A stretch of DNA of 64,000 bases from a virus, in the IMG/VR virus record IMGVR_UViG_3300017991_000104, positions 1 to 64,000 of that record. One strand, written 5' to 3'. The notes below the pieces were generated by a model, which saw only the letters and a program-made list of their open reading frames with translations, was not told the origin of the DNA and ran no database searches. Position 1 is the first letter of the stretch. Each line of letters begins with the position of its first letter. The position numbers and the translations under genes were made by a program. Shown here piece after piece: positions 36 through 34,239 of the stretch.

Positions 36-287
36 ATGCCTAAGGACGAAGAAAGCTACACCTTTGAGTTGGTAATGTTCAAGCGAGACAGTCGAGGTAA
101 CCCGACTAGTCAGCGTATCTCTAAGAAATCTAACAAAGCAGGAGCGATTGCGGCGTTTTGGTACAAGGAAGGTGCTATTTACGGAAAGAAGCGAAAGAGA
201 AAGACTGATAAAGCTGCGACCAAGGACCAAGCAGACAAAATTCTGACGGAGATGAATAAGAGTACCCCCAATGTCGATAATTCATGA
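36..287 (+). CDS. Hypothetical basic protein, 83 aa
   Basis: I do not recognise this gene. The product is small and Lys/Arg-rich, with a KKRKRK stretch near residue 52 that could bind nucleic acid or simply reflect composition. An AGGA-type site (ggacgagga) precedes the ATG. Its end overlaps the start of the ribonucleotide reductase gene by 17 bases, so the two are probably co-translated. No membrane segment or Cys motif is visible. Confidence 0.65.
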   Translation: MPKDEESYTFELVMFKRDSRGNPTSQRISKKSNKAGAIAAFWYKEGAIYGKKRKRKTDKAATKDQADKILTEMNKSTPNVDNS

Positions 288-3200
288 GTTGCAAAACTAC
301 ACCTTCACATCCAAATACGCTAATCATTTATCAGAGGAGAAACGACGAGAAGACTGGAAGGAATCAGTAGGCCGCGTAGAAGCTATGATGCTTCGTAAGT
401 ATGCAGGGTATGGTGTCGATGATGACATCCGCTTTGCATACGGCATGATGAGAAAGAAGAAGTCGCTAGGGTCACAACGGGCTCTGCAATTCGGTGGCAA
501 GGCAGCAGAGAAACGCAACACTCGTTTGTTTAACTGCACTGGCAGTTTCTGTGACCGGCTGAGATTTTTCCAAGAAGCTTTTTGGCTATTGCTGTGCGGG
601 TGTGGTGTAGGCTACTCCGTTCAGACTCACCATGTAGCTAAGCTTCCACCGCTATACACAGGTAAGCGTAAGGGTACAAAGACCTTTACTATTCCCGACA
701 CTATTGAGGGTTGGGCTGATGCTGTAGGCGTATTGCTTAGCAGTTACTTTCAGGAAGCTGCTGATGATGAGCATGAGAAGTACATCGGCTATTCTATCAA
801 GTTCAAGTATGATAAGATACGCCCAGAAGGCTCCAAGCTTAGTTCAGGTGGCAAGGCCCCTGGTCCTGCACCACTTAGAAAGTCTCTCGAAGCAATCCGT
901 GAACTACTCAAGAGATGCGTCAAGGGTGGACAAACCGGACTCAGGACTATTGATGCCCATGACATTGTCTGCCACGTAGCTGACGCTGTGCTGTCGGGTG
1001 GCATTCGTCGCTCTGCTTGTATCGCTCTATTCAGCTTGGATGACGAGTTGATGATGCGGTGTAAAAGTGGGGATTGGTACGAAGAAAACCCGCAGCGGCA
1101 ACGAGCTAACAACTCTGTGGTGTTGGTTCGTAATAGGTTGAAGTTTGAGGACTTTGACCGTATCGTCCAGCTTATCAGGAAGAATAGGGGCGAACCTGGG
1201 TTTGTTATCACAGATAGTACAGAGATTGCCATTAACCCGTGTCAGCCTGGATGGGCTCAGCTTTTAACCCCAGATGGTATTCGTCCTATGTCCGAGATTA
1301 ATGTGGGAGATGAAATCTGGAGCGAGACTGGCTGGACCAAGGTTCTAAATAAGTGGTCTACTGGTGTCAATAAGGTCTTTAAGTATACGACTAATGGAGG
1401 GGTCTTTTATGGCACCGAGGGACACCGTTTAGTAAGTAATGGTCAGAAGATAGAAGCTAAGGATGCACCTTCTATAGATACACTTACCTGTGAAGACCGG
1501 CTATACGCTGTGCAGAATAATAATCTACAAGCTATAATGGACGGGCTCGTCATAGGTGATGGGAGTGTACATGCGGCTAGTAACAACTTAGTCTATCTGT
1601 GCATAGGTAAGGATGATGTGATGAGCTACATGGCTGATGCTGTGAGGCCATTGATAGAAAGGCACCGTCCTGGCATCAAGAAGTATGCGTGGGAAGTGAC
1701 TACGACTATTAAGCACTCCGAATTACCCAAGACCCACCTTCGCACAGTGCCGGAAAGGTATATACAGGGTAGCTTTGGAGATAAGTGTTCGTTTCTCAGA
1801 GGGCTTTATTCAGCCAATGGGTCCGTGGTAAGAAATCGTATCACACTCAAGGCCGCTTCTCGTCCGTTGATTGAACAAGTGCAGATGATGCTCTCCTCTA
1901 TTGGCATTCGGTCCTATGTGACAACTAATAAGACCAATAAGGTGGAGTTTGCAAACGGCACATACCAGTGTCGTGAAAGTTATGACCTTAACATTACTGC
2001 TGACCGGGATAAGTTTGCTTTACACATCGGCTTTATACAGAAGTATAAGGATGAAAAGATAAATCTGGATACTGTTAGTAAAGGCAAGAAGGTCACGTAT
2101 GATATTGTAGATGTGGAACTAGTATCTGAGGAGGAGACTTTTGACATCACTGTGGATAATAATACCCACACATATTGGACACAGGGGGTAAATGTATCCA
2201 ACTGCGGCGAGGTTATGTTCTGGCCTGTGTGTATGGTTACTAAGCTGACTGGGTGGGGTTTCTGTAACCTCAGTACAATCAACTGCAAGTTAGTCAAGAC
2301 CGTTGAGGACTTCTACGAGTGTTGTCGGTCTGCGGCTATCAAGGGCACGTTACAGGCTGGGTTTACCGACTTCCACTACCTGGGTGAAACTAGTCAGAAC
2401 ATTGCTAAGCAGGAGGCTCTGATTGGGGTGTCTCTGACCGGGGTAATGGACTCGTATGAAATCGTGCTGGACCCTGAGGTACAACGGAAGGGGGCGAAAA
2501 TAGTCAGGGAGGAGAATGAGCGGATAGCTAAACTCCTGGGTATTAACCCTGCTGCCCGTACTACTCTTGGTAAGCCTGAGGGAACGTCCAGTTTGATGTT
2601 GGGTTGCTCAGTCAGTATGAACGCCCATCATGCCAACCGGTTCCTACGTGGGGTCATTGCGAATCCATTGGAGACTACCTATCAGTACTTCAAGTTACAT
2701 AATCCCCTTGCGTGTGAGCGGTCACTGACTTCGGCTAACGGCAAGGATGAGATGATTCGGTTTCCGATTGAGGTACCCGATGGCTCTAAGACTCGCAACC
2801 AACTTCCCGCGATTGAGATGCTCAAGATTATCCAGAGTACTAAGAAGAATTGGGTAGACCCTGGGCAGAACCGCGATACCTGTGCACAGCCATGGCTATC
2901 CCACAATATATCCAACACGATTACCGTGAAGGATGACGAGTGGGAGGAAGTGACACAGTTCATCTATGATAATAAGGATGACTTCATAGGTGTGACGCTA
3001 TTAAACTATAGTGGTGACCGAGACTATAAGCAAGCACCCTATGTAGAAGTACTAACTTCGCGTCAGATTATACGTGAGTATGGTGACCCCGGTGTGTGGT
3101 GTTCGGGCCTGATTGAACTTGGGCTTGAAGCATTCGACGACGACCTCTGGGATGCCTGTACAGCGATGGAGGATGACGAGTTTCCTACCTCATTAAAAGA

Positions 3201-3465
3201 AAACGTAGGGGATGACTCTGCCGCTCTGTTTAAAGCTTCTCGGCAAGCTAGATTCTATGAGAAAGCTCGCAAGTTTGCCACCAAGTACTTCGATGGCGAC
3301 CTGCGAAGGCTGAGTTACTGCCTCAAAGATGTCTATAACTGGAAGCGTTACTGTGACATTAAGGAAGCTTTTGTGCCCGTTGACTACAAGAAGATGGTCG
3401 AGGAAGAAAACGGGACTAACTTTGAGGGTGAAATGGTATGCAGTGGCGGGAGTTGTGAACTCTAA
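271..3465 (+). CDS. nrdJ: Class II (B12-dependent) ribonucleotide reductase, interrupted by an intein
   Basis: Reduces ribonucleotides to deoxyribonucleotides in the cytoplasm using an adenosylcobalamin radical. The ORF encodes 1064 residues. Removing the intein at residues 324-644 leaves 743, matching the monomeric Lactobacillus-type triphosphate reductase (about 739). Visible landmarks are the N-terminal redox Cys in LFNCTGS (C89), the GGIRRSA segment, the radical-site motif NP-CGE rebuilt by splicing, the GFCNL motif, and a C-terminal redox pair C1057/C1062 in VCSGGSCEL. The thiyl-radical Cys of CGE is the first residue after the intein. The start overlaps the upstream small gene. Class and role are confident; B12 dependence follows from family membership. 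Confidence 0.95.
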   Translation: MSIIHELQNYTFTSKYANHLSEEKRREDWKESVGRVEAMMLRKYAGYGVDDDIRFAYGMMRKKKSLGSQRALQFGGKAAEKRNTRLFNCTGSFCDRLRFFQEAFWLLLCGCGVGYSVQTHHVAKLPPLYTGKRKGTKTFTIPDTIEGWADAVGVLLSSYFQEAADDEHEKYIGYSIKFKYDKIRPEGSKLSSGGKAPGPAPLRKSLEAIRELLKRCVKGGQTGLRTIDAHDIVCHVADAVLSGGIRRSACIALFSLDDELMMRCKSGDWYEENPQRQRANNSVVLVRNRLKFEDFDRIVQLIRKNRGEPGFVITDSTEIAINPCQPGWAQLLTPDGIRPMSEINVGDEIWSETGWTKVLNKWSTGVNKVFKYTTNGGVFYGTEGHRLVSNGQKIEAKDAPSIDTLTCEDRLYAVQNNNLQAIMDGLVIGDGSVHAASNNLVYLCIGKDDVMSYMADAVRPLIERHRPGIKKYAWEVTTTIKHSELPKTHLRTVPERYIQGSFGDKCSFLRGLYSANGSVVRNRITLKAASRPLIEQVQMMLSSIGIRSYVTTNKTNKVEFANGTYQCRESYDLNITADRDKFALHIGFIQKYKDEKINLDTVSKGKKVTYDIVDVELVSEEETFDITVDNNTHTYWTQGVNVSNCGEVMFWPVCMVTKLTGWGFCNLSTINCKLVKTVEDFYECCRSAAIKGTLQAGFTDFHYLGETSQNIAKQEALIGVSLTGVMDSYEIVLDPEVQRKGAKIVREENERIAKLLGINPAARTTLGKPEGTSSLMLGCSVSMNAHHANRFLRGVIANPLETTYQYFKLHNPLACERSLTSANGKDEMIRFPIEVPDGSKTRNQLPAIEMLKIIQSTKKNWVDPGQNRDTCAQPWLSHNISNTITVKDDEWEEVTQFIYDNKDDFIGVTLLNYSGDRDYKQAPYVEVLTSRQIIREYGDPGVWCSGLIELGLEAFDDDLWDACTAMEDDEFPTSLKENVGDDSAALFKASRQARFYEKARKFATKYFDGDLRRLSYCLKDVYNWKRYCDIKEAFVPVDYKKMVEEENGTNFEGEMVCSGGSCEL
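1240..2202 (+). mobile_element. Intein in ribonucleotide reductase (321 aa, LAGLIDADG type)
   Basis: In-frame insertion that starts with Cys (CQPGWAQ...TPDG, block A) and ends GVNVSN before the extein Cys of CGE. Block B contains GTEGHRL. Two dodecapeptide motifs mark a LAGLIDADG endonuclease: GLVIGDGS and GLYSANGS. In the second, the usual catalytic Asp is Asn, which may weaken or abolish cutting. The penultimate residue is Ser rather than the usual His. The reading frame is intact, so splicing is likely to be retained. Confidence 0.93.
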
Positions 3466-9787: not shown

Positions 9788-12259
9788 ATGACAAGACTGA
9801 GTGACGTTGCTGCTGAGAGAGCAGTATTAGCTGGAATCTGTAGGTACGGTGCCGATGCATACTTAGATATCGTGAGTATGTTACAGCCTAAGACCTTTAC
9901 GCTCGGCTCTAACGAGTGTATCTTTAACTGCGTCCAAAGGATAATGGAAAATGATGACCGCTCATCGGTCGATATTCCTTCCATTCTTTCCGCAGCACAT
10001 GACATTGGTATCAGCCATGTCTTTGAGAATCCTGATGAGGCTAAGCATCTAAAGGCCATCTTTTCCTTTCCCGTAGAGCTTAATAATGTACGTAAGTTCG
10101 CGGCCAAGATTCGGAAGTTGGAGATTGCTAGGCTTATCCGTGAGCAGATGGACATAGCCAAGTCTGAAGTGGGCGAAATCACTGGTGATGAGCCTGTCGC
10201 AGAGATTATGAGCATAGCTGAGGACCGTGTCTTTCGACTGGGGTCTTTACTGCATGATGACTCTGAGGAACCGCAGAAGTTAGGCATGGGTTTAACTGAA
10301 TACCTAGCCTACCTAGCTGAGAATCCGGTCGAGCAGATGGGTATCTCTACAGGGTTCCATGCTTATGATGGGGCGATTGGTGGTGGTGTGCGGGATGGCA
10401 CAGTCAATGTGATTGCTGCTCGGCCTAAGGCCCAGCCACTGTACTGTCGTATAGCTACACCCGATGGGTTCAAAAGAATGTCTCAGATTCAAGTTGGAGA
10501 CCAGATAAGTGACCCAGTAACAGGTGGGACTACCCAGGTGGTTCAACTACACCCTATGGGAGTTAGGCCGGTCTTTCAGGTAACCTTTGACGATGGTTCT
10601 TTTACACAATGTTGTGCTGACCATGAATGGAGAGTACGACATGCTAGGAAAAAGCATGATGAGATTAAGACCACTCTGGAATTAATGAATACGCTTAAGA
10701 CACCCAACGGAGATACCGAACGATACACATGGAGAATCCCCATAACACATCCTGTAGGTATGAATAACAAGTTCGTTAAAATTCACCCATACGTAATGGG
10801 ATGCCTACTGGGGGATGGGTCATTTAGACATAACCTACGGCTGTCTTCGGCAGACCTATACATCGTTAGGAAAGTTAGTTCATTGCTAAATGAAGAGGGG
10901 TATACCTTAAATCATGTAGCTAACTATGACTACAGTGTGACACATGGGCAGCATGGTCAGCCCAATAAGTATATCGACTGGTTGCGTGACTATTGTTTAT
11001 GGATGGAAGATTCTCACAATAAGTTTATTCCTGCGTCTTATCTTGAGAATCATATAGATGTTAGAATTCAATTGTTACAGGGATTGATGGATACAGATGG
11101 TTACGTGGATGAGAAGGGAAGGGTCGAGTACACTACGGTATCTGCTAAACTTGCTGTGCACGTTAAACAGTTAGTCCAATCCCTTGGTGGCAAGGCTACT
11201 ATATCTATACATCAAACCAAAGAATGTACCTCATATAGGCTGTATATCGCCTTTTTAGATAATTCTATATGCTTTAGCCTTCCTCGTAAAGTAAGTCGAT
11301 GTAAGCCACGGCAAAAAAGACTTGAGAGAAAGATAGTGTCTATCGAGTATGTAGAGGATACTGAGTGTCAGTGTATTACCGTAGACTCTGCGGATAACCT
11401 TTATCTTACAGACCGATATATCGTGACAAAGAATTGTGGCAAAACGATGCTGTCGGACAATATCGCTGACAACATCACGGACCAGAGTATCCCAGTGCTA
11501 AACATGGATACCGAGATGCTACTTGAGGACCATCAACACAGGTTCACCGCCAAGGTATCTCACACAGCTATCGACCTCATTGAGACTGGTAAGTTTGCCA
11601 ACGACCCAGAGGTTAAGCGACGGGTGATGGGTGCTGCCAAGAAGATTGGTGACAAGCCCTACTACCATAAGAGCATCTCTGGCATGCCTTTTGAGGAGCA
11701 ACTAGCTCTCATGCGACGATGGATAACCAAAGAGGTTGGCCTTAATGCCGATGGTACAGCCAAGCCATGTGTTATCATCTATGACTATCTCAAGTTGATG
11801 GACTCTCAGGGCATATCTGCCGACCTTAAGGAGTACCAGTTACTTGGCTTCATGATGACGACATTGCACAACTTCGCGGTACGCTACAAAATCCCCATCA
11901 TTGCCTTCATGCAGTTGAACAGGGATGGGATTACCAAGGAGAGTACTGATACTGCTAGCGGTTCAGACCGAATCATCTGGCTTTGCAGCAACTTCTCTAT
12001 ATTTAAACGAAAAAGCCCCGAGGAAATGCAAGCCGATGGCGTTAGAAACGGCAACCGCAAGTTGGTGCCTGTCGTTGCTAGACATGGGGCTGAGTTTGAC
12101 CCGAATGATTACATTAACTTCCACATGGAGGGTTGGTGTGCTACCATCAAAGAGGGAAAGACGAAGTTTGAGATAGAGGCTGAGGGTGATACTCCCAATG
12201 AGTCCGATGGCTTCGTTGCTGAGGAAGAGTACCCTGATGATGGAGTGCCTTTTGAATGA
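9788..12259 (+). CDS. dnaB: Replicative DNA helicase DnaB, interrupted by an intein
   Basis: Unwinds DNA ahead of the replisome. The 823-residue precursor minus the 335-residue intein gives 488, normal for DnaB. The N-terminal domain starts with SDVAAERAVLAGI, the usual DnaB-N opening. The Walker A loop is broken exactly by the intein (AARPK | CGKTML). After the intein come the Walker B region (CVIIYDYLKLM), the QLNR-type motif (IIAFMQLNR) and a conserved arginine region near the end. The start is preceded by GAGGGA. Primase is encoded downstream. Confidence 0.95.
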   Translation: MTRLSDVAAERAVLAGICRYGADAYLDIVSMLQPKTFTLGSNECIFNCVQRIMENDDRSSVDIPSILSAAHDIGISHVFENPDEAKHLKAIFSFPVELNNVRKFAAKIRKLEIARLIREQMDIAKSEVGEITGDEPVAEIMSIAEDRVFRLGSLLHDDSEEPQKLGMGLTEYLAYLAENPVEQMGISTGFHAYDGAIGGGVRDGTVNVIAARPKAQPLYCRIATPDGFKRMSQIQVGDQISDPVTGGTTQVVQLHPMGVRPVFQVTFDDGSFTQCCADHEWRVRHARKKHDEIKTTLELMNTLKTPNGDTERYTWRIPITHPVGMNNKFVKIHPYVMGCLLGDGSFRHNLRLSSADLYIVRKVSSLLNEEGYTLNHVANYDYSVTHGQHGQPNKYIDWLRDYCLWMEDSHNKFIPASYLENHIDVRIQLLQGLMDTDGYVDEKGRVEYTTVSAKLAVHVKQLVQSLGGKATISIHQTKECTSYRLYIAFLDNSICFSLPRKVSRCKPRQKRLERKIVSIEYVEDTECQCITVDSADNLYLTDRYIVTKNCGKTMLSDNIADNITDQSIPVLNMDTEMLLEDHQHRFTAKVSHTAIDLIETGKFANDPEVKRRVMGAAKKIGDKPYYHKSISGMPFEEQLALMRRWITKEVGLNADGTAKPCVIIYDYLKLMDSQGISADLKEYQLLGFMMTTLHNFAVRYKIPIIAFMQLNRDGITKESTDTASGSDRIIWLCSNFSIFKRKSPEEMQADGVRNGNRKLVPVVARHGAEFDPNDYINFHMEGWCATIKEGKTKFEIEAEGDTPNESDGFVAEEEYPDDGVPFE
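10430..11434 (+). mobile_element. Class 3-like intein in the DnaB P-loop (335 aa, LAGLIDADG type)
   Basis: The insert starts with Ala (AQPLYCRIATPDG), not Cys or Ser, and ends VTKN before the extein Cys of CGKT. It shows the WCT signature of class 3 inteins: Trp in block B (DHEWRV), a Cys in block F (ECQCITVDS) and Thr in block G (VTKN). The penultimate residue is Lys. Two LAGLIDADG motifs with both Asp residues (CLLGDGSF, GLMDTDGYV) suggest an active endonuclease. Confidence 0.93.
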
Positions 12260-17537: not shown

Positions 17538-17858
17538 ATGGCACCTAGTGGAATTAGTGACCGCGATATTGCACAGGCCACCCACTCTGCCGAAACAGCG
17601 ATGGCAGAGATTGAGCAAAGCCACGATGAACTTGTCAACCGCATCATGGAGTTGGAAGATGAGAACGAGATGTTGAGAGGGCAGTTATACCCAGAAGGCT
17701 CTGAGAATGCCAGTAGACCTTCCGTTGACCAACAGGCTCATGCGTGGCAAAAGGTACATCGTCATGCATGTGAGTGTGGCTTGCTAAGATTTGTAGGTAG
17801 CTTGCGAGGTGGAAGTTGCCAGCGTTTGATAGAGTGGATTACGGAGTTAACGAAATGA
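17538..17858 (+). CDS. Hypothetical coiled-coil protein, 106 aa
   Basis: A GGGAGGA site precedes the ATG. Residues 20-48 form a clear coiled coil (HDELVNRIMELEDENEMLRGQL), then a short C-terminal region with two Cys in CEC. The stop overlaps the DnaE start (ATGA). The 40-base gap upstream contains a small GGGCG/CGCCC hairpin. Function unknown. Confidence 0.6.
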   Translation: MAPSGISDRDIAQATHSAETAMAEIEQSHDELVNRIMELEDENEMLRGQLYPEGSENASRPSVDQQAHAWQKVHRHACECGLLRFVGSLRGGSCQRLIEWITELTK

Positions 17859-19708
17859 ACTATACGCCATTGCACTGCCACAGTCACTACTCCCTGCTAG
17901 ATGGACTCAGTCAGCCTGAGGACATGGTTGGTAGGGCAGAAGAACTGGGTATGGATGCGATAGCCATGACGGACCATGGGTCTGTTAGTGGCACGGTTGA
18001 GATGCTCAAGCAGTCTAAGGACAAAGTGAAACCTATCCTGGGTATTGAAGCCTATGTTTGTGATATGGATGCATCAGTAAAGAACACTGATAATAAGAAG
18101 CTCTCCCACCTTGTTCTGCTTGCCAAGAATGATGCTGGTTGGAAGTCACTCTTGAAGATTGTCTCCGAAAGTAATCAGAAGGCTCACTTCTATCATAAGC
18201 CACGACTTCATCTGGAACAGATAGCTCCATTGGTTGATGGAAACATCTTCGCGATATCTGGGCATCTTGGCTCAACTATCGCACGTACTGTTATGAATAA
18301 CCCTTCGTGGGAAAATGAGGGAATAAGACTTGCCGAGTTGCACGAAGAGATATTTGGCAAAGGCAACTTTTTTCTGGAAGTCCAGTTAATCGACAAGGAT
18401 ACGATTGATGAGATGGTCGAGTGCACCGACAAGGTGCGGAGCATCGGTAGAAAGACTGGCATTCCTGTGGTGGCGACTCCCGACGCTCACTACTGTAGAA
18501 AAGAGGATGCTTATGACCAGCGTATCGTCTTGTGTAAGAATCTCGGTGGACTGACACTTGCTCAGGCTCGGAAGAAGGTGGATATGCCCTTCTTCAAGAG
18601 TAATAACTTCCACATACCGAGCTTCGATGAGATGCAAGCGTGTGGTCATACGATGGAAGAGTTGGATAACACCAACTTGATAGCATCGCAGTGTAAGGGT
18701 TACTCAGATATCCTTCATCCTCCGATGCTTCCTCCATTTGCTTGCCCTGGTGACCATAACCCAGACACTTGGTTGAGACAACTATGTAGGGACGGTTGGA
18801 GACAGAAGATTGCTGACAGAGTGCCGAAGGATAAGCACCAAGAGTATGCTGACCGAGTGAAGCATGAACTCTCAGTGCTACAAGGTGCTGGCCTGTCTAG
18901 CTACTTCCTAATGGTAAAGGATATCGTTGACTTTGTGACTGATAATGGGTGGCTCCCAGGTCCAGGGCGAGGCTCTGCTGCTGGCTGTCTTGTATCCTAC
19001 CTCCTAGGTATTACAGGCATTGACCCGCTACCCTATGACCTCATTTTCGAGAGATTCTACAATGCTGGCCGTAACACTGATACTCATATCTCTATGCCGG
19101 ATATTGATGTTGACGTACCCTCGGGCAAGCGTGATGAAATAATTGATTACATCAAGAAGGAGTATGGTGAAGACAAGGTTGGACAGATGATTTCCTTCCA
19201 GACTATGAAGGGAAGGGCCGCTATCAAGGATGTGCTTAGAGCATATGGTGGCATCTCCAACGACGAAATGGATATGATAACGTCAAGGTTCCCCGAAGAA
19301 CCTAAAATCGCGGGTGAGCTTCAAGAGATGGAAAAAGAGACAGGTGAGTCAAGTAGTGTGTTGTACACATTGCTCCATGATGATGAAGGTAGGCTGAAAG
19401 ACTGGTGTTATATTGAGGATGGTGAGTTCCGTGGACCGCTTGCGAAGAGATTTGAACAAGCATGCCGTTTGGAAGGCACCAAGACCGCTCAGTCAAAGCA
19501 TGCTGCTGGTATCGTAGTCGCACCTGTAGCGTTGGAAGAGTTTTGTCCGATTGTCTATGATACGAAGACGAAAAGTCGCGTAGCTGCTTGGGAAATGAAT
19601 GACTTGGAGGCTGGTGGTGGACTAAAGCTGGACATTTTGGGCCTCAGCATGCTTGACAAAGCTATGGGGTCTGCGGATATCCTAGAAGATGGAGATGTGA
19701 GATTGTGA
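17855..19708 (+). CDS. dnaE: DNA polymerase III alpha (DnaE-type), N-terminal piece: PHP + palm
   Basis: 617 residues. The start at 17855 puts the PHP domain at the very N-terminus (MNYTPLHCHSHYSLLDGL). PHP metal motifs HxH, TDHGS, GIEAYV and PDAHYC look intact, so a proofreading-like exonuclease is possible. The palm follows, with PGRGSAAG, PDIDVDV (catalytic D418, D420) and LKLDILGL (third Asp D593). The protein stops about 24 residues after the last catalytic Asp. Fingers and beyond are on a separate gene at 24919. No intein fragment is present at the break. Total of the two pieces without the intein is about 1183 residues, normal for DnaE. Confidence 0.93.
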   Translation: MNYTPLHCHSHYSLLDGLSQPEDMVGRAEELGMDAIAMTDHGSVSGTVEMLKQSKDKVKPILGIEAYVCDMDASVKNTDNKKLSHLVLLAKNDAGWKSLLKIVSESNQKAHFYHKPRLHLEQIAPLVDGNIFAISGHLGSTIARTVMNNPSWENEGIRLAELHEEIFGKGNFFLEVQLIDKDTIDEMVECTDKVRSIGRKTGIPVVATPDAHYCRKEDAYDQRIVLCKNLGGLTLAQARKKVDMPFFKSNNFHIPSFDEMQACGHTMEELDNTNLIASQCKGYSDILHPPMLPPFACPGDHNPDTWLRQLCRDGWRQKIADRVPKDKHQEYADRVKHELSVLQGAGLSSYFLMVKDIVDFVTDNGWLPGPGRGSAAGCLVSYLLGITGIDPLPYDLIFERFYNAGRNTDTHISMPDIDVDVPSGKRDEIIDYIKKEYGEDKVGQMISFQTMKGRAAIKDVLRAYGGISNDEMDMITSRFPEEPKIAGELQEMEKETGESSSVLYTLLHDDEGRLKDWCYIEDGEFRGPLAKRFEQACRLEGTKTAQSKHAAGIVVAPVALEEFCPIVYDTKTKSRVAAWEMNDLEAGGGLKLDILGLSMLDKAMGSADILEDGDVRL

Positions 19709-24721: not shown

Positions 24722-24922
24722 ATGAGTAGTAGTGAACCTCGTTGGGCGACTAGGAAGTTGGTAGCATGTAATCAGTGCGACCATTGTAGAATTAGTCATA
24801 GGCATTCTGGTAGGATATGGCTATGTTTAGAGACAAACTATGCCATCAATAAAGAAGATGACCCAGACTGGATTTATCACAATATCCCTCACTGGTGTCC
24901 ATTACCGAAGGTGGGCGAATGA
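24722..24922 (+). CDS. Small Cys-rich protein, 66 aa
   Basis: ACNQCDHCRISHRHSG has CxxCxxC near residue 16, with a further Cys at 35 and 59; a metal site is likely. The stop overlaps the DnaE C-piece start (ATGA). Unknown function. Confidence 0.55.
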   Translation: MSSSEPRWATRKLVACNQCDHCRISHRHSGRIWLCLETNYAINKEDDPDWIYHNIPHWCPLPKVGE

Positions 24923-27390
24923 CCGAAGAAACCAAAACTACCGTTAAACAGTTCGAGTTCCCCTGTGGGTGTCAGTTTGAACTAATCGAGGAGCGTGAGG
25001 ATGGGGCACTTCGTGTAAAGTTCTTCCCAGATATCAACAAGATTGCGTTAGATTGCACACGTACTTGGGACTTGATTAGCTCTGGTAACACCAAGGGGTG
25101 TTTTCAGTTGGAAAGCCGACTTGGTCAGAGCTTGGCATCGAAATTGAAGCCAAGGAACATGGAGCATCTTGCTGCCCTCACGGCAATAATGCGTCCTGGG
25201 TGTGTTTCCAAGTCATCACGTATAGCTATAGGTAAGTATAAACATACCAAGGATGGCAGGATAAGGTTTAAGCAAGAGTCTATAGAGGACTTGTACAAGA
25301 AGCATCAAAGAAACCATCCGGCCTATACAAGAAGCATCCTTTCCTATGATGAGAAAAATCACTGTCTGGTTGAGAACAAGATAGTTAACGTGATGTATAG
25401 TGGTATTCAACCAGTGGTTAAAATCAAGTATCGCAAGACTGCATATAATAATCGCTGTACAAGTCACAAGAGGTCTTATGGTTTAGAATGTACATTAGAC
25501 CATCCACTGTACGTATTCAAAAAGGGCTGGACTGCGGTTCAGGATATGAAACTGGGCGATAGATTTCTTGCGAGGTCTGTCGGAGAGGGTGCCGTAAGAG
25601 AAAGAACGCTTACAGAACATCAAAAAACTTTTCGTGATATCTGTTTTAGGAATTACGAATATAAGTGTGTTATTTGTGACTGGAATAATGCCTCACTTGA
25701 TGTGAACCACTTAGATGGTAATAGAGAGGTTAATAACCACCCCGACAATCTCGTGTTCCTTTGCCCTAACCATCATCGAGAGTATACAGAAGGGTGTCTT
25801 ACTCAGGGGGAGATAATTGGTTCCCGTGAAAGACACAGACTTCCTCAAGATGATGACCTGATATGGATGGTATATGAGGGTTGGGAAAATGCTGGTGAGG
25901 TTGAAACTTATGATATAGAGGTTGAAGGACCACATCATAATTTCATCGCTAACGAGACTATTGTTCACAACTGCTTGGAGGCTAAGCGGGACAAAAAGTC
26001 CATCACTATGCATTATATCGACAGGAAGAATGGTGAGGAAGAGGTTACTTACTCTCACCCAGCACTTGAGTCTATCCTTGCTAGTACCTACGGGGAGATG
26101 GTCTTCCAAGAGCAGGCCATGATGATTGCTCAGAAGATTGCGGGTTTCGACCTGCAACAAGCTGACGTACTTCGTAAGGCTATCGGCAAAAAGAAGCCTG
26201 AGATTATGGCTAAGGTCAAGGATGAGTTCCTTCAAGGGTGCTCTAAGATGGGTATCGTTGATGACGAGAAAGCCATGGAGTTGTGGGAGCAGATTGAGAA
26301 ATCGCAGCGTTATTCCTTCAATAAGAGTCACTCCGTAGCATATGCTTACAACTGCTACCTATCGGCCTTCATCAAGGCTCACTTCCCACGAGCATTCTTC
26401 ACTTCCTATCTTTTCTTTGCCCGTAAGAAGTCCAAGACCTACGATGAGGTTAGTGACCTTATCGCTAATGCTGTCCATATGGATATCGCCATCTGTAAAC
26501 CCGACCTTATGAAGCGTAATGCACGTTTCAAACTATATGGTCGCGATATCTATTACGGCTTCTCCGATATAAAAGGAATCGGTGATGCAATGGCGGCTAG
26601 AATGATTAAAGGACTCTTCAAAGCCGAGGAACAGCGTGGCAAACCCGTTGAGGAATTCTCTTGGTCGGAAATGCTCGTCTTCCTATCAGACAAGATGGCA
26701 AAGAACTGCATGGAGAAGAGTATCGGTGCGGGTGCCATGGACTTCACAGGGGTATCTCGGAGTAAGATGCTCCATGACTATGGGGTATTCCGCGAACTCA
26801 AGGACCGCGAGGTCGAGTGGATAGTCAGGAAGTATGATAGCTTAGAAGACCAGACTATCGAGGGCATGTTTCGTGCCATTCTTGCCGCACCAACCGGCAC
26901 TGGTAAAGACCCTGAGAAGGCGTGTTCTAGTACCAAGCGACTGGCTAAAGTGCAATCGCTACTCAATGGTATTCTCAACCCATCCTACAAACTGATAGAT
27001 AAGCCAGGATGGTTGGCTGGTACAGAGGAACAGTTGCTTGGTGTACCACTCACATGTAACAGTGTCGAAGACTGTGACATTAGTGAGGCGAACTGCACAT
27101 GTAAGCAGTTCCTACAAGAGCGTGAGCGTGACCCAGTCATTATCATCGCGTGTAAGATTAAGCAAGTCAAAGAAATCACGGTGAAGAATGGGAAGAATGC
27201 TGGCGACAAGATGGCATTTCTCACTGTGGAAGATAAAACAGGACAGGTCGAAACCGTCACTGTGTTCTCCGACAAATGGCCAGAGGTCAAGCCACTGTCT
27301 ATTGAGCGTAACCATGTCATGTTACAGGGTGAGCGTGGTCAGAGAAAAAATAAGGAGTCTCTTATTGTAAAAAAGATGACTCAAATTTGA
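24919..27390 (+). CDS. dnaE: DNA polymerase III alpha (DnaE-type), C-terminal piece: fingers to OB fold, with intein
   Basis: 823 residues including a 257-residue intein (95-351). The ATG at 24919 overlaps the previous stop. After a short leader with a CGC motif (FPCGCQF), the sequence resumes DnaE at the start of fingers: GNTKGCFQLES, LAALTAIMRPG, then after the intein YGEMVFQEQAMMIAQ, ADVLRKAIGKKK and SFNKSHSVAYA. The tandem HhH region and a C-terminal OB fold (VTVFSDKWPEVKPL) follow. All three catalytic Asp are in the other gene 5.2 kb upstream. The two proteins must associate to make a working polymerase; this is inference. Confidence 0.93.
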   Translation: MTEETKTTVKQFEFPCGCQFELIEEREDGALRVKFFPDINKIALDCTRTWDLISSGNTKGCFQLESRLGQSLASKLKPRNMEHLAALTAIMRPGCVSKSSRIAIGKYKHTKDGRIRFKQESIEDLYKKHQRNHPAYTRSILSYDEKNHCLVENKIVNVMYSGIQPVVKIKYRKTAYNNRCTSHKRSYGLECTLDHPLYVFKKGWTAVQDMKLGDRFLARSVGEGAVRERTLTEHQKTFRDICFRNYEYKCVICDWNNASLDVNHLDGNREVNNHPDNLVFLCPNHHREYTEGCLTQGEIIGSRERHRLPQDDDLIWMVYEGWENAGEVETYDIEVEGPHHNFIANETIVHNCLEAKRDKKSITMHYIDRKNGEEEVTYSHPALESILASTYGEMVFQEQAMMIAQKIAGFDLQQADVLRKAIGKKKPEIMAKVKDEFLQGCSKMGIVDDEKAMELWEQIEKSQRYSFNKSHSVAYAYNCYLSAFIKAHFPRAFFTSYLFFARKKSKTYDEVSDLIANAVHMDIAICKPDLMKRNARFKLYGRDIYYGFSDIKGIGDAMAARMIKGLFKAEEQRGKPVEEFSWSEMLVFLSDKMAKNCMEKSIGAGAMDFTGVSRSKMLHDYGVFRELKDREVEWIVRKYDSLEDQTIEGMFRAILAAPTGTGKDPEKACSSTKRLAKVQSLLNGILNPSYKLIDKPGWLAGTEEQLLGVPLTCNSVEDCDISEANCTCKQFLQERERDPVIIIACKIKQVKEITVKNGKNAGDKMAFLTVEDKTGQVETVTVFSDKWPEVKPLSIERNHVMLQGERGQRKNKESLIVKKMTQI
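25201..25971 (+). mobile_element. Intein in DnaE C-terminal piece (257 aa, HNH type)
   Basis: Starts with Cys (CVSKSSRIAIG) and ends with the standard IVHN before an extein Cys. Block B is CTLDHPLYV. The middle holds an HNH endonuclease: YKCVICDW, VNHLDGNREVNNHPDNL and CPNHHREY. The insert lies in the conserved RPG-C segment of the polymerase fingers. Both splicing and endonuclease motifs look intact. Confidence 0.93.
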
Positions 27391-27915: not shown

Positions 27916-28387
27916 GCTATCCGATGAGCAAGTCGAAGTACTAATCAAAGAGAACATGCCCCTGATTCTTCGGCTTGCTCAATCTTTTTGTCCACGTACA
28001 GCAGACGACCTTGAAGAAATGATTCAGATAGGTCGTATTGCTGTGTGGAATGCTGCCGAAAAGTTCGATAGTAGTCGTGCTAAGAAACTATCGACCTTGA
28101 TGTGGCGATACATAAGGTGGGACATAATACGCTACCTTGAGAAAGAAAAGCGGCAGTACATGCAAACCTCTGATTTTGTATGCTGCCCACCAGACGACAA
28201 GAAGCACCAGGGCATGTGGGAAATACTCCCAAGCAACCTAACCGAAGAAGAAGCAGAAGTAATTCGACTCCGTGCGTTGCACAACTGCACCTTCAAGGAG
28301 ATAGGGAAGCAAATGGGCTATGGTCGCAACTGGGCTAATCGGAAGTATCAATCTGCTTTACGCAAGATAGGTGTAGCAAACAAATGA
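27884..28387 (+). CDS. Sigma-70-family-like transcription factor, 167 aa
   Basis: GTG start chosen because AGGAAGG lies 8 bases upstream; an ATG far upstream at 27683 would run out of frame through ssb. Region 2 is visible (DLEEMIQIGRIAVWNAAEKFDSS...LMWRYIRWDIIRY), and a region 4 helix-turn-helix at the C-terminus (LTEEEAEVIRLRALHNCTFKEIGKQMGYG). It would redirect host RNA polymerase to phage promoters. The stop overlaps the following glycosyltransferase (ATGA). Confidence 0.8.
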   Translation: MAKATTTSRSKLSDEQVEVLIKENMPLILRLAQSFCPRTADDLEEMIQIGRIAVWNAAEKFDSSRAKKLSTLMWRYIRWDIIRYLEKEKRQYMQTSDFVCCPPDDKKHQGMWEILPSNLTEEEAEVIRLRALHNCTFKEIGKQMGYGRNWANRKYQSALRKIGVANK

Positions 28388-31224
28388 GAAAGAAGCGAGT
28401 CCTATTTCTAGGTGAGGCTCCGTTCGTAGTGTCTGGGTTTGGCAAGTACGCTAAGGAAGTACTTGACCGTCTTGAAGCTACAGGCAAGTATGAACTGGCT
28501 CTCTTGGCTAGCTATGGTAAGGTCCGTGACCCACGTGACACAGGTATCAAGTACTGGTACTATGCTAATCATGTGACTGACCAGAAGCACCCTGAGTTCA
28601 AAGCCTACAAGAGTAATCCTGTGGCTCAGTTCGGGGAGTGGCGGCTGGAACGTACAATGCTGGACTTCAAGCCTGATATAGTGGCTTGCTATCGTGACTA
28701 TTGGATGGACTCATTCGTCCGACGTAGTCCATATCGTAAGTACTTTCACTGGGTATGGATGCCCACTGTTGATAGTGCACCACAGCAAGAGGAGTGGATT
28801 GATACGTTTATCTCGGCTGATGGGATAATGACGTACACCGACTGGGCACAAGGGGTGTTGCGGCAAGAAGGTAATGGGGCGATTACTCTCTGTGGCACAG
28901 CAGCACCTGGGGTAGACCTTAAGGTGTATAGTCCTGTGAGGGATAAGGCTGCTCATAAAGAGCGGATGGGCCTTGACCCGAGCATGAATATTATCGGAAC
29001 AGTGATGAGGAACCAGAAGCGGAAGCTATTCCCTGACCTGTTTGAAGCATTCTCCCTTTTTCTCAAGAGGGCTAAGGCTGATGTGGCTGCGAAGACATTC
29101 TTATACTGTCATACCAGCTACCCCGACAATGGATGGGACATCCCCAGGCTATTGAAGGAGCATCAGATTGGCCACAAAGTCCTCTTTACATATGTGTGTA
29201 GCCAATGTCGTAAGCCTCACGTGGCGTTCTTTAAGGGTGCAATTGCGGCCTGCCCACATTGCAAGAACCTTACTGCCCTATTACCTAATGTCAGTTTTGG
29301 CGTGGACGCAGAATACCTAGCGGCTCTGATGAACTGCTTTGATGTGTATGTGCAATATGCTATCTGCCTTGGTAAAGACGAAGAGGTTCGCACCCTTGGA
29401 GGATGGACCCCTATAAAGGATATTAACCAGGGGGATATGGTGTTGACCCATACAGGCACATATCATCCTGTGACGATGACTATGGCAAGTCCGAATAAGG
29501 GGAGCGTTAAAGAGATTAGTCTCTGTGGTGACTATGAGACACTAACTATTACGGACAATCACCCAGTTTATTGTTACACTAAGGAGACATTGGGGTCTAC
29601 ACAGGATAAGACCGCCAGGGAAATCTTTGGGGATAAATTGCGAAAAGGTCAGGTGATTCCTACTCCCGAGTGGAAGCCGGTTGCTGACCTGAGCCCTGGT
29701 GATTTGATTGCGATGCCTATTGATAGTGAGATTGTTGAGTTGAAAGACCTCGATATCTCAGAGTATGCTAAGAAGTCTGATTGTACAATCACCGAGGATG
29801 AGATTGCATATACTTATGGCAATACCTATCCACGATACGTGAAGCTCACGGATGATTTTTGCTACTTTGTGGGGCTATATGCTGCTGACGGCCATGCTAA
29901 TAAAAGCTGTGGTCAAATACAGGTTACACAAGCTAGTAAAGAGCTTGATAATTTACACCTGTGTACTAGAGTGGCCAGGGAGATATGTCCAAATAATCTA
30001 CTTACCATCTCACCATACGATGGTAGAGATGCTGTAGATATTAAGATACCTTCGACCTTATATCGAGATGTCTTTAAATCATGGTGTAAGAGTCATGGTG
30101 AAAAGCAGTTACCCTACTGGGCGATAACTCAGATTGGATTAGCTAAACAGGCCAGGGTTCTTCAAGGATTGTTCAGTGGAGATGGATGTTACTCCAACCA
30201 CCGTGGAAGAAACGTGACCTCATTCAGCACCATATCCAAGGTACTGGCAGACCAAGTAAAGGTTCTACTGCGAAGACAACGATGTAATTTCAACTGTTGC
30301 ATCATCCATAAGTCTGGAAACCGTCAACCTCAATATACATTTGAGATTCCTGGTGATGTGGTAAAGGATGGTTTCACGCCAACTAAACGGACTAGCTCGG
30401 CACATCTATACTATGGAGACTATCACTTGCTAAAGATAAAGGGTATTAGTGATAGTGACTATAAGGATGATGTATATAATATTGAAGTAGCTGATGACAA
30501 TAGCTATGTTACCAAGCTAGGTTGTGTACATAACTGCGAGGGAATGGGCATGCCAGCGATTGAAGCAGCAGCTTGCGGGGTGCCCATTATGGCTGTAGAC
30601 TACAGTGCCATGGAGGATGTTGCTAAGTATACTGGTGGAGTCGCCCTTAAGGTGAAGCACCTGTTCCGAGAGATGGAGAGCCACGCCTATCGTGCATCTC
30701 CTGACAATGAGTATCTGGCTGATAAGCTGGTCGACTTCTTTAACAAGCCAACCCAGATGCGTAACCGTGTTGGTCGCACCGCCCGTAAGGCTGCTGAGAA
30801 ACACTGGGATTGGGACAAGACCGCTAAGAAGTGGGAGCGATACTTCGATGCTGTCGACATGAGTGACCTCCAAGGTCAATGGGATAATCCCCAGGTGGAT
30901 ATTAAGCCCATCGCACCCTTTGAGGCCGCACCACAAACTCAGGACAATGTAGCTTTCATGAAGTGGGCAACCTTGGATGTACTGGGTGACCCGACCTATC
31001 TTAATTCACAGCTATACCTGACGCTACTGAGAGACTTGAACATCAAGGGTATCGTCAAGGGTGGCAAGCTGCATCCATTTGAAAGGAAAGACGCTTACAA
31101 TATCTTTTCTAACATGGCAAAGAACCGTAACCGTCTAGAGGAAATCAGGAGTGGGCGTGTCCAGATGGCATCGCCTGACTTTATCGAGTATGCACATTTG
31201 AAGAAGGGATTAGTCAATGAATAA
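28384..31224 (+). CDS. GT4-like glycosyltransferase with zinc ribbon, interrupted by an intein
   Basis: 946 residues; 556 after removing the intein (328-717). GT-B architecture: N-terminal Rossmann half with VLFLGEAPFVVSGFGKYA, a middle MRNQKRKLFPDLFEAF nucleotide-sugar region, and the C-terminal ExxxxxxxE-type motif restored as CEGMGMPAIEAAACGVP. A CSQC...CPHC zinc ribbon near 270-297 sits inside the transferase. It transfers a sugar from an activated donor to an unknown acceptor. It heads a cluster of at least six further glycan genes. The intein insertion is precisely before the catalytic motif. Confidence 0.85.
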   Translation: MRKKRVLFLGEAPFVVSGFGKYAKEVLDRLEATGKYELALLASYGKVRDPRDTGIKYWYYANHVTDQKHPEFKAYKSNPVAQFGEWRLERTMLDFKPDIVACYRDYWMDSFVRRSPYRKYFHWVWMPTVDSAPQQEEWIDTFISADGIMTYTDWAQGVLRQEGNGAITLCGTAAPGVDLKVYSPVRDKAAHKERMGLDPSMNIIGTVMRNQKRKLFPDLFEAFSLFLKRAKADVAAKTFLYCHTSYPDNGWDIPRLLKEHQIGHKVLFTYVCSQCRKPHVAFFKGAIAACPHCKNLTALLPNVSFGVDAEYLAALMNCFDVYVQYAICLGKDEEVRTLGGWTPIKDINQGDMVLTHTGTYHPVTMTMASPNKGSVKEISLCGDYETLTITDNHPVYCYTKETLGSTQDKTAREIFGDKLRKGQVIPTPEWKPVADLSPGDLIAMPIDSEIVELKDLDISEYAKKSDCTITEDEIAYTYGNTYPRYVKLTDDFCYFVGLYAADGHANKSCGQIQVTQASKELDNLHLCTRVAREICPNNLLTISPYDGRDAVDIKIPSTLYRDVFKSWCKSHGEKQLPYWAITQIGLAKQARVLQGLFSGDGCYSNHRGRNVTSFSTISKVLADQVKVLLRRQRCNFNCCIIHKSGNRQPQYTFEIPGDVVKDGFTPTKRTSSAHLYYGDYHLLKIKGISDSDYKDDVYNIEVADDNSYVTKLGCVHNCEGMGMPAIEAAACGVPIMAVDYSAMEDVAKYTGGVALKVKHLFREMESHAYRASPDNEYLADKLVDFFNKPTQMRNRVGRTARKAAEKHWDWDKTAKKWERYFDAVDMSDLQGQWDNPQVDIKPIAPFEAAPQTQDNVAFMKWATLDVLGDPTYLNSQLYLTLLRDLNIKGIVKGGKLHPFERKDAYNIFSNMAKNRNRLEEIRSGRVQMASPDFIEYAHLKKGLVNE
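29365..30534 (+). mobile_element. Intein in glycosyltransferase (390 aa, LAGLIDADG type)
   Basis: Starts CLGKDEEVRTLGGWTPIKD (block A), has TDNHPVYCY (block B), and ends GCVHN before the extein Cys. LAGLIDADG motifs GLYAADGHA and GLFSGDGCY keep both Asp residues. All splicing positions look standard. Most known inteins sit in replication and nucleotide enzymes; a sugar transferase host is uncommon. Confidence 0.93.
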
Positions 31225-31750: not shown

Positions 31751-31899
31751 TGGATAGTGTCCTGCTCGTCATTGCTGTCGTCATCCTCTTCTATGTATGG
31801 CCCACCCCTAAGGGCGAGGCTGTGGTAGATGACGAGGGGTGGCATCCAAGCCGTAACTACAAGTTGGGAATGTGGGGCGTGAGAGCCCCTTGGAGGTAG
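31747..31899 (+). CDS. Small membrane protein, 50 aa
   Basis: GGGAGGA precedes two tandem ATGs (31747, 31750). Hydrophobic span SVLLVIAVVILFYVW at the N-terminus, then a hydrophilic tail. Unknown function. Confidence 0.55.
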   Translation: MMDSVLLVIAVVILFYVWPTPKGEAVVDDEGWHPSRNYKLGMWGVRAPWR

Positions 31900-31901
31900 A
31901 A

Positions 31902-33023
31902 GTGAACATTCTCTTTATAGGTCCATACCGACAAGCTGATGGATGGGGTGAGGCTGCACGGAGCTATCTTCGTGCACTGATACGCACCACTCATAACATA
32001 GCGGCACGACCAGTCTACATGGGAAGTACTATACATACCCCTGGTCCAGACATTCTTGACCTTGAGGATATAGAGTGCTCAGAATATGATGTAGTTATAC
32101 AGAATGTATTGCCACACATGCTGACTCGTGTTGAGGGGGCTAAAAACATTGGCCTGTTCTACCTGGAAACTAAGAACATTGATTGGACGCCGTGGCCAGA
32201 TGCCTGTTCTTCGATGGATGAAATCTGGGTGTCTAGTGTTGATGAGTGCAAGGTGCTTGAGAATGCGGGAGTCTCGGTACCTGTCCATAGTATGCCCATT
32301 CCGGTAGATGTGGATAAGTATAGGAGTGTAGATTACACACGGTTTCCATTGTCTAAGCTGGACAACCACTTCAATATCTACTTCATCGGTGAGTTTATTC
32401 CACGGAAGAATATCCATGCACTGTTGGTAGCATTCCATCGCGAGTTTACTAACGATGAGCCGGTCAACTTAGTCATCAAGACATACCTTGGGAATATGCA
32501 CCCTCAGGTGTTATTGCAACAGGTGAATCAGCAGTTCCTTGACATTAAAAAGATACTGCGAATTTACCCTGACCCAAATATGTATAGACAAGAGATTGTG
32601 GTTGTCGATAGACTGTCCACGGAAGACCTGATGGGCTTACATAGGGCGTGTCAGTTGTTCGTCATGCCATCTCGCGGAGAAGCATGCTGTCAACCACTGC
32701 TTGATGCTATCGGTATGGGTAACCGTGCCCTGGTGACCGAAGGTACAAGCATGGAGTCTATTGTTCATAGCTGTCTCAATCGTGGCCCCTACCTGATTAA
32801 GGCCCACGAGACTCCCGTGTACAGTAAGCAAGCTCCGCTACCCTTCATTTACACTGGGCGTGAGACTTGGATGGAGGTTGACTTGCTCAACTTACAGCGT
32901 AGGCTCCGCACCCACTTTAATGAGTGGAAGAAAGACCCAGATAAGTATTGGGCTGATACTGTTAACCGTGTTGACTTCCTAAGCTATGATAGCATCGCAG
33001 AAAAGATGAGGGGTGTACTATGA
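31902..33023 (+). CDS. Glycosyltransferase (GT4-like)
   Basis: 373 residues from a GTG start directly after GGAGGT; the earlier ATG at 31872 lies before that site. N-terminal NILFIGPYRQADGWGEAAR is a typical GT-B start. The middle has NIYFIGEFIPRKNI (GT4-like strand) and the C-terminal half FVMPSRGEACCQPLLDAIG, corresponding to the E-x7-E donor-binding motif. The donor and acceptor are unknown. Part of the 28-39 kb glycan module. Confidence 0.8.
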   Translation: MNILFIGPYRQADGWGEAARSYLRALIRTTHNIAARPVYMGSTIHTPGPDILDLEDIECSEYDVVIQNVLPHMLTRVEGAKNIGLFYLETKNIDWTPWPDACSSMDEIWVSSVDECKVLENAGVSVPVHSMPIPVDVDKYRSVDYTRFPLSKLDNHFNIYFIGEFIPRKNIHALLVAFHREFTNDEPVNLVIKTYLGNMHPQVLLQQVNQQFLDIKKILRIYPDPNMYRQEIVVVDRLSTEDLMGLHRACQLFVMPSRGEACCQPLLDAIGMGNRALVTEGTSMESIVHSCLNRGPYLIKAHETPVYSKQAPLPFIYTGRETWMEVDLLNLQRRLRTHFNEWKKDPDKYWADTVNRVDFLSYDSIAEKMRGVL

Positions 33024-33292
33024 TAGACCCAGTTATCACACTGGCCCTGATAGTTTATTTTACAACAGCCATATGGTCTTATAAAATATTTCGCCACGTG
33101 TTGAAAAATCATCCAGACAATCCAAGCTGGAACCGTCAGGATAGAGTTTTATCAATAGTATTGGCTACAGGTGGCCCACTGTCGTTCATCTCTATGATAA
33201 TTGTGTTTATTGCAGTGAAAATCTACGAATGGCATCAGGCCACAGACTGGACTGAGTGGAGAGATTTCTGGAATGAGGAGGTTGATTGGTGA
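33020..33292 (+). CDS. Two-span membrane protein, 90 aa
   Basis: Hydrophobic segments at about 5-22 (VITLALIVYFTTAIWSY) and 50-72 (ATGGPLSFISMIIVFIAV), Trp-rich C-terminus. ATGA overlap before, GTGA overlap after. Could anchor the glycosyltransferases to the membrane, but this is a guess. Confidence 0.6.
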   Translation: MIDPVITLALIVYFTTAIWSYKIFRHVLKNHPDNPSWNRQDRVLSIVLATGGPLSFISMIIVFIAVKIYEWHQATDWTEWRDFWNEEVDW

Positions 33293-34239
33293 GTATCACA
33301 ATCCACAACATAGTACGTCGTGCAAAGACGCACTCTGCATACAACATCCTGTGTTTTCCGCACGATGGCTTCTTTGAGAGGATGCTTTGTCAGGCTTTCC
33401 CCGAACACCATTTCTATGGGATAAAGGAAACCAGTCAGTATCCATGGAATACACAGGCACTGCCACCAGAGGCTAACTTTCATCTGCTGCCACCGGCTAA
33501 TGACTTTGTTCCTCCACACGTGGACTTCGACTTTATCCTGTGCAATAATCATGCTACACAATGGGATAATGCGAGGCGACTTGCTAGCGAAATGCATCTC
33601 CCGATTGTGCTGATGGAACATATGCTGATGCCACCTTCTCTCAAGCCTGAGGAGGTCTTTCTGTGGAATAAGAATAACAAGCCGTGCGTGAGAGTATTCA
33701 CAGACCAACGGGCTTTGGAGCAGTGGGGCACTGGCAAGGTAGTCCCATATGGTATTCCAGACTACGAATGGATGGATAAGAAGGACCAGATAGCTATCAG
33801 CGGTGACTTTGTTCGCAATGAGATTCCGCTGCTGCAAGAGTTGTCCAAGCAAATCTCCATTCCTATGAAATTTGTGGGGCATAGTCCAGACGTTTCGCCT
33901 ATAATAACTTCACCGAACGAGTTGGAGTGGGCTATTGGTCAGAGTCGGATATTCCTCAACATTAAGGAAGCAGTCTACGTTCCTATCATGCTTTTGGAAG
34001 CTATGGCACGTGGCTGCACAGTGATAACAACGGCATCACCATTATTGGATGATATTGTTATTCACGGGAAAACTGGGTACATTATCAAATCACTGCCTGA
34101 GCTAAAACAGTATCTTAACAAGCCCAGCCTGGGCGAAGAGGCTGCGGCCTTTGTTAAGAAGCTGTTCAACTTCAAGTCTTTCGTAGCAGCTTGGGCTCCC
34201 ATCTTTAACAAAGCAGCAACCGAGGTATATACCCGATGA
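33289..34239 (+). CDS. Glycosyltransferase (GT-B type)
   Basis: 316 residues; the GTG start overlaps the previous stop and follows GAGGAGG. The C-terminal half has IFLNIKEAVYVPIMLLEAMARGC, the E-x7-E-like donor loop, and a following GKTGYIIKSLPEL. The N-terminal acceptor domain is divergent. Sugar specificity unknown. Confidence 0.75.
   Translation: MSITIHNIVRRAKTHSAYNILCFPHDGFFERMLCQAFPEHHFYGIKETSQYPWNTQALPPEANFHLLPPANDFVPPHVDFDFILCNNHATQWDNARRLASEMHLPIVLMEHMLMPPSLKPEEVFLWNKNNKPCVRVFTDQRALEQWGTGKVVPYGIPDYEWMDKKDQIAISGDFVRNEIPLLQELSKQISIPMKFVGHSPDVSPIITSPNELEWAIGQSRIFLNIKEAVYVPIMLLEAMARGCTVITTASPLLDDIVIHGKTGYIIKSLPELKQYLNKPSLGEEAAAFVKKLFNFKSFVAAWAPIFNKAATEVYTR

Follow-up and report, generated by a model that had tools for sequence, protein, structure and literature searches.

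Inteins are known to prefer conserved sites in their host proteins (PMC2814812), and it is equally established that those of phage proteins sit in functional motifs (PMC5050341). The mycobacteriophage inteins resemble the case described here, since they are phage-borne, placed in functional motifs, sporadic and able to occupy several sites in one gene (the terminase). Their hosts, however, are terminases, nucleases, methyltransferases, a nucleotidyltransferase and others, and the term "glycosyl" is absent from that account (PMC5050341). Among sugar-transferring enzymes, the fungal chitin synthase (CHS), a GT2 enzyme, carries inteins (PMC5784728). The nature of the host is thus shared with our case, but the four CHS cases concern a membrane enzyme with another fold, interrupted at another site and without phage involvement (PMC5784728). 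A preliminary description of the locus had regarded a sugar transferase as an uncommon host, which still stands, although the GT2 chitin synthase (PMC5784728) means that such a host is not unprecedented.

Full-text literature searches, whose scope stopped short of subscription papers and of InBase, returned no report of a GT4 enzyme or a phage glycosyltransferase as intein host. The candidates that did appear (Haloferax glycosylation clusters, Borgs and the Staphylococcus jumbo phage DC4) proved to be free-standing endonucleases or to involve other host genes. Nor did the literature searched hold the many earlier reports at this glycosyltransferase site against which the preliminary description had cautioned; the other cases lie in unannotated metagenomic contigs. 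What is new is the intein host family (GT4) with its two insertion sites, inteins at catalytic motifs being already known.

The DNA analysed here (64,000 nucleotides, hereafter the window) makes up most of an IMG/VR virus record of 67,945 bases. It encodes a tail tape-measure protein, SSB, a sigma factor, DnaB and DnaE, and its source is therefore a tailed bacteriophage. Judging from the sequences, we consider it very probable that the window carries, within a phage GT4-type glycosyltransferase, a class-1 mobile intein bearing a LAGLIDADG endonuclease, which would be spliced out post-translationally and would home at the DNA level.

The interrupted gene and its insert

The reading frame in question (ORF 28384-31224, + strand) stays open throughout its 946 residues. 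The insert, which corresponds to residues 328-717, begins with CLGKDEEV and ends with TKLGCVHN, the next residue being a cysteine; when the flanks are joined without it, they give a 556-residue protein reading ...DVYVQYAI|CEGMGMPAIEA.... Both lengths, as well as the coordinates, are exactly those of the preliminary description, which had proposed a complete 390-residue intein (CLGKDE... to VHN|C, 29365-30534) and a joined product of 556 residues. The parts of the gene are the following:

28384..29364, + strand: N-extein, the first 327 residues of the GT4-type glycosyltransferase (PHROG 2170; the relatives' model matches GT4 structures)
29197..29262, + strand: four-cysteine zinc-ribbon-like insertion in the glycosyltransferase, CxxC...CxxC
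29365..30534, + strand: intein, 390 aa, class 1, with LAGLIDADG homing endonuclease
29365..29403, + strand: intein block A, Cys1 nucleophile, CLGKDEEV...
29551..29565, + strand: intein block B, TxxH motif TDNHP
29872..29892, + strand: first LAGLIDADG motif, GLYAADG (Pfam LAGLIDADG_3)
30166..30186, + strand: second LAGLIDADG motif, GLFSGDG
30475..30534, + strand: intein blocks F and G (YNIEVADDNSYVTKLGCVHN), with penultimate His and terminal Asn (TIGR01443 above cut-off)
30535..31221, + strand: C-extein, 229 residues, the first being Cys+1; stop codon at 31222-31224
30538..30564, + strand: GT4 EX7E catalytic/nucleotide-sugar motif EGMGMPAIE, one residue past the intein (Pfam Glycos_transf_1)

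Profile searches support the assignment of the insert, LAGLIDADG_3 matching with 41.6 bits (cut-off 22.5, E 1.6e-10) and TIGR01443, the intein C-terminal region, with 17.0 (cut-off 15.6). The generic Pfam models Intein_splicing and Hint also match, both under their cut-offs, which marks the window intein as a divergent one. The residues expected of class 1 are present: Cys1 as N-terminal nucleophile (found in all 14 complete inteins compared, and also in those of L149 and L157), TDNH at intein residues 63-66, and His389-Asn390 (VHN) followed by Cys+1. Both LAGLIDADG motifs (GLYAADG and GLFSGDG) are intact and acidic, and the insert is free of stops. The modelled insert matches the PI-SceI and TliVMA inteins (Foldseek E 4e-15 to 1e-13), the model having been built on four allelic inteins with moderate confidence (pLDDT 69). 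Finally, the insertion is in frame and at a precise point, being absent from all 95 fetched homologues (35-51% identical), which are uninterrupted at the junction. Because these 95 intein-free relatives align across the junction and 13 other phage genes are filled exactly there, the insert is not a chance feature. By sequence and modelled fold, it is built like a class-1 intein that has an endonuclease nested within it, and splicing and cleavage would be expected of it.

The composition of the insert also sets it apart, with a GC content of 0.43 (flanks 0.49 and 0.50) and a third-position GC of 0.40 (flanks 0.53 and 0.56), values that fit a foreign origin. An origin from the other inteins of the window was considered and discarded, no other match to this intein being present in its own record.

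The window phage has three more interrupted genes (271-3465, 9788-12259 and 24895-27390). Its B12-type ribonucleotide reductase and DnaB helicase hold LAGLIDADG inserts, and an HNH-type intein lies in the C-terminal part of DNA polymerase III alpha. The latter enzyme is encoded by two ORFs about 5 kb apart, one (17816-19708) with the PHP and NTPase part and the other (24895-27390) with the finger and OB part and the intein. Two further GT4-like genes are found downstream of the interrupted glycosyltransferase (31872-33023 and 33286-34239).

The host enzyme and the insertion site

The host family was identified through its intein-free relatives. Pfam Glycos_transf_1 matches 26 out of 26 of these, PHROG 2170 (glycosyltransferase) matches the relative L019 over residues 2-433 (2.5e-26), and a PDB profile search leads to BshA, MshA and PimB'. 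The GT-B fold was recognised in an AlphaFold model of L019 (pLDDT 93), which here stands for the joined window protein. Its best structural match is the chlorovirus NY2A glycosyltransferase B736L (3oy2, E 5.5e-20), followed by sucrose-phosphate synthase, MshA, BshA, PimB' and many GT4 enzymes. In the joined product, the two glutamates of the EX7E motif are E329 and E337; E337 is invariant across nine relatives, and E329 is missing in L013 only. Taken together, sequence and model identify the host as a GT4-type glycosyltransferase of presumed activity.

The insertion point, between Ile327 and Cys328 of the putative mature enzyme, precedes the first Glu of EX7E by one residue. In the L019 model this junction falls in a loop, with a strand (322-325) on one side and a helix (334-341) on the other; the intein thus splits the nucleotide-sugar-binding loop. 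By analogy with the GT4 family, the unspliced precursor, with its EX7E loop split, should be inactive as a glycosyltransferase. The preliminary claim of a GT4-like host, interrupted immediately before CEGMGMPAIEA at a catalytic motif, is in agreement with both the EX7E motif and the GT4 matches.

This phage GT4 family also has the zinc-ribbon-like insertion listed above, some 36 residues upstream of EX7E. Its four cysteines are invariant in nine relatives (alignment A1), Zn_ribbon_8 matches three of 26 relatives, and L157 is without the second Cys pair.

At least 590 relatives were obtained, of which the 95 already mentioned were checked at the junction; at position +1, 68 of these empty relatives have Cys, 26 have Ser and one has Ala. 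Conservation as high as at the junction is found in only 17 of 546 ten-residue windows (the window's own sequence being excluded from the count), and on this alignment evidence the insertion site belongs to the best conserved region of the enzyme. Conservation is also good at the DNA level: the closest empty site (L045) is 80% identical over 54 bases, the proteins themselves being about half identical. The earlier suggestions that the site was chosen for motif conservation, and that its position parallels that of inteins elsewhere, fit this conservation count and are instances of a known rule (PMC2814812, PMC5050341). Among cultured phage records, we found just uninterrupted glycosyltransferases of 22-25% identity and unrelated inteins. 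The host family is hence mostly uncultured, and the remoteness of its cultured relatives may explain why the site went unnoticed.

Allelic inteins and their probable movement

Further inteins were sought with junction patterns and intein profiles. A C-terminal junction pattern (H-N-[CST]-E-G-x-G-x-P), run over 2.9 million viral contigs, retrieved five stretches: three inteins at the exact main site (L103, L104 and L107) and two native sequences (L105 and L106), which match the pattern and yet read ...QPHNSEGFGIP... without an intein. An intein profile search added L113/L114, an N-junction pattern added L117, L118, L120, L121/L122, L123 (partial), L125 and L126, and a Gln-junction pattern, whose matches were mostly chance ORFs, added L149 and L157/L160. 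With the window included, there are at least 14 distinct inteins at the main site, the 13 others in environmental phages; this count is a lower bound and not a prevalence, since the patterns fix parts of the junction and bias the scans. The case is not a singleton, and the intein, its GT4-like host and its position hold as the preliminary description gave them.

All complete main-site inteins start with Cys, end with Asn or Gln and are followed by Cys+1. The last two residues are HN in six, FQ, PQ or YQ in six and NN in one, the L123 intein being cut. In the Gln-ended inteins (L113, L120, L121, L126, L149 and L157), which are allelic to the Asn-ended ones at this site, Phe, Pro or Tyr replaces the penultimate His. 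Gln-ended inteins are already known from the Pho and Pab PolII proteins (PMC8175363).

A second site, D(I/V)V|C...HN|C(G/S/D)IRD, lies about 225 residues upstream of the main one and is occupied in five relatives (L107, L108/L109, L110, L111, which is partial, and L157). The L107 and L157 genes are doubly invaded, with an intein at each site. The L107 record (G003, 160,023 bases) is intein-rich: Intein_splicing matches it ten times, and these matches are spread over several frames. Across diverse hosts, the inteins cluster by insertion site and not by genome (support 100/100).

Used as sole query, the window intein retrieved just three unrelated C-terminal matches, in fractured helicase inteins. 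The helicase gene concerned (L015:1918-4862, L016:2342-4323 and L017:2340-5272) seems to be fragmented: one ORF holds the N-intein and another the C-intein, and there is an overlapping ORF that is endonuclease-like, an arrangement that recalls fractured genes whose inteins are split.

The histories of inteins and hosts do not coincide. Mapped on a host tree of 72 rows, occupancy of the main site takes eight changes, and well supported branches make at least six of these unavoidable. The inteins resemble each other far more closely than their hosts do in the pairs L113/L125 (63% vs 34% identity), L113/L120 (65% vs 33%) and L120/L125 (61% vs 32%). Placing the hosts of the five closest inteins (L113, L120, L121, L125 and L126) in a single clade is rejected by an AU test (delta lnL 323); this group was picked after the inteins had been seen. 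In the near pair L120/L121, dS is 0.24 for the intein and 0.53 for the exteins, and dN/dS within inteins is 0.08-0.20 in the pairs tried. In L117, the first LAGLIDADG block is shortened or damaged (GLFAAGDG). Filled, decaying and empty alleles therefore coexist, as the homing cycle predicts.

The closest relative of the window intein is the one in L104 (43% identical). The L104 host groups with the L103 host (60%), whereas the two inteins share 28% identity, a mismatch that suggests an allele swap. Grouping the L104 intein with its host clade is not rejected by the intein AU test (p 0.16), and we have accordingly dropped L104 as proof of transfer. With a best relative at just 43%, homing by the window copy is undatable, and intein searches of the viral contigs found no near-identical copy in another host. 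On sequence comparison, the incongruence between inteins and hosts speaks for horizontal homing, with a conserved catalytic site as its target, in the allelic relatives as distinct from the window copy.

Proposed splicing and homing, and relation to known inteins

In the mechanism that we propose, Cys1 would form a thioester, the chain would be transferred to Cys+1, the terminal Asn would cyclise and an S-to-N shift would complete the ligation, yielding an intact 556-residue enzyme. The ligated junction peptide is predicted to be ...VQYAICEGMGMPAIEA..., containing VQYAICEGMGMP. At the DNA level, the endonuclease would cut the empty site (about ...CAATATGCTATC|TGCGAGGGA...) in co-infecting phages, and repair of the cut gene would copy the intein in.

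Other readings share part of this mechanism. Splicing could have been retained with the endonuclease dead, so that the window copy is now inherited vertically only; the damaged GLFAAGDG of L117 shows that degeneration does occur at the main site, and the failure to find a near-identical window intein in another host points the same way. We nevertheless hold this to be a plausible but unlikely state of the window copy, given that both of its acidic LAGLIDADG motifs are intact, that it has no stops and that related inteins are under purifying selection. The weak Pfam Hint and PT-HINT matches could instead indicate a Hint-type, bacterial-intein-like domain that cleaves without ligating, leaving the enzyme in halves or lost. 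This is highly improbable in view of the Cys+1 and the His-Asn end, the occurrence of inserts precisely at one conserved position that is uninterrupted in the empty alleles, the intact downstream host part in a conserved family, and a modelled fold nearest to splicing inteins.

Conditional splicing of other inteins has been published. A redox-, temperature- or metal-dependent reaction could make the intein a switch that controls the glycosyltransferase post-translationally in the course of infection, an idea favoured by this precedent, by two nucleophiles that are both cysteines and by a catalytic-site position that should leave the precursor inactive. On such grounds it might even be argued that the enzyme is on only at the right redox state or infection stage, and that the inteins are kept in some phages for this reason. 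We give little credence to either the switch or this account of retention, since the inteins are patchily present, the site is empty in most relatives and no result on the glycosyltransferase inteins indicates regulation.

The reading that we prefer, a splicing and homing intein, extends the host range of phage inteins to a sugar-metabolism enzyme without known nucleic-acid role. The site is populated rather than an oddity, with 14 inteins at one point, five at a second, two double invasions, a degenerate copy and intein-free alleles. The set bears on the question of why inteins favour DNA enzymes: it fits the idea that any phage gene with conserved, widely shared DNA may be targeted, without its function having to be related to DNA. 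In addition, the Asn-ended and Gln-ended members of one allelic family provide natural variants for studying the chemistry of the final step of splicing.

In its architecture, the window intein is like the PI-SceI/VMA1 and Thermococcus litoralis VMA inteins, with the same block A, B, F and G residues and a Hint fold that encloses two LAGLIDADG motifs; it differs from them in its glycosyltransferase host and in its sequence, which is about 14% identical to solved inteins. In its population pattern, the closest parallel is found in the haloarchaeal MCM-a/MCM-d inteins, where there are also several allelic sites per gene (some genes being doubly invaded), the +1 residue correlates with invasion and allelic inteins group by site (PMC10643990). 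There, however, the host is a helicase and homing was shown experimentally (PMC10643990), whereas the glycosyltransferase case is drawn from sequences.
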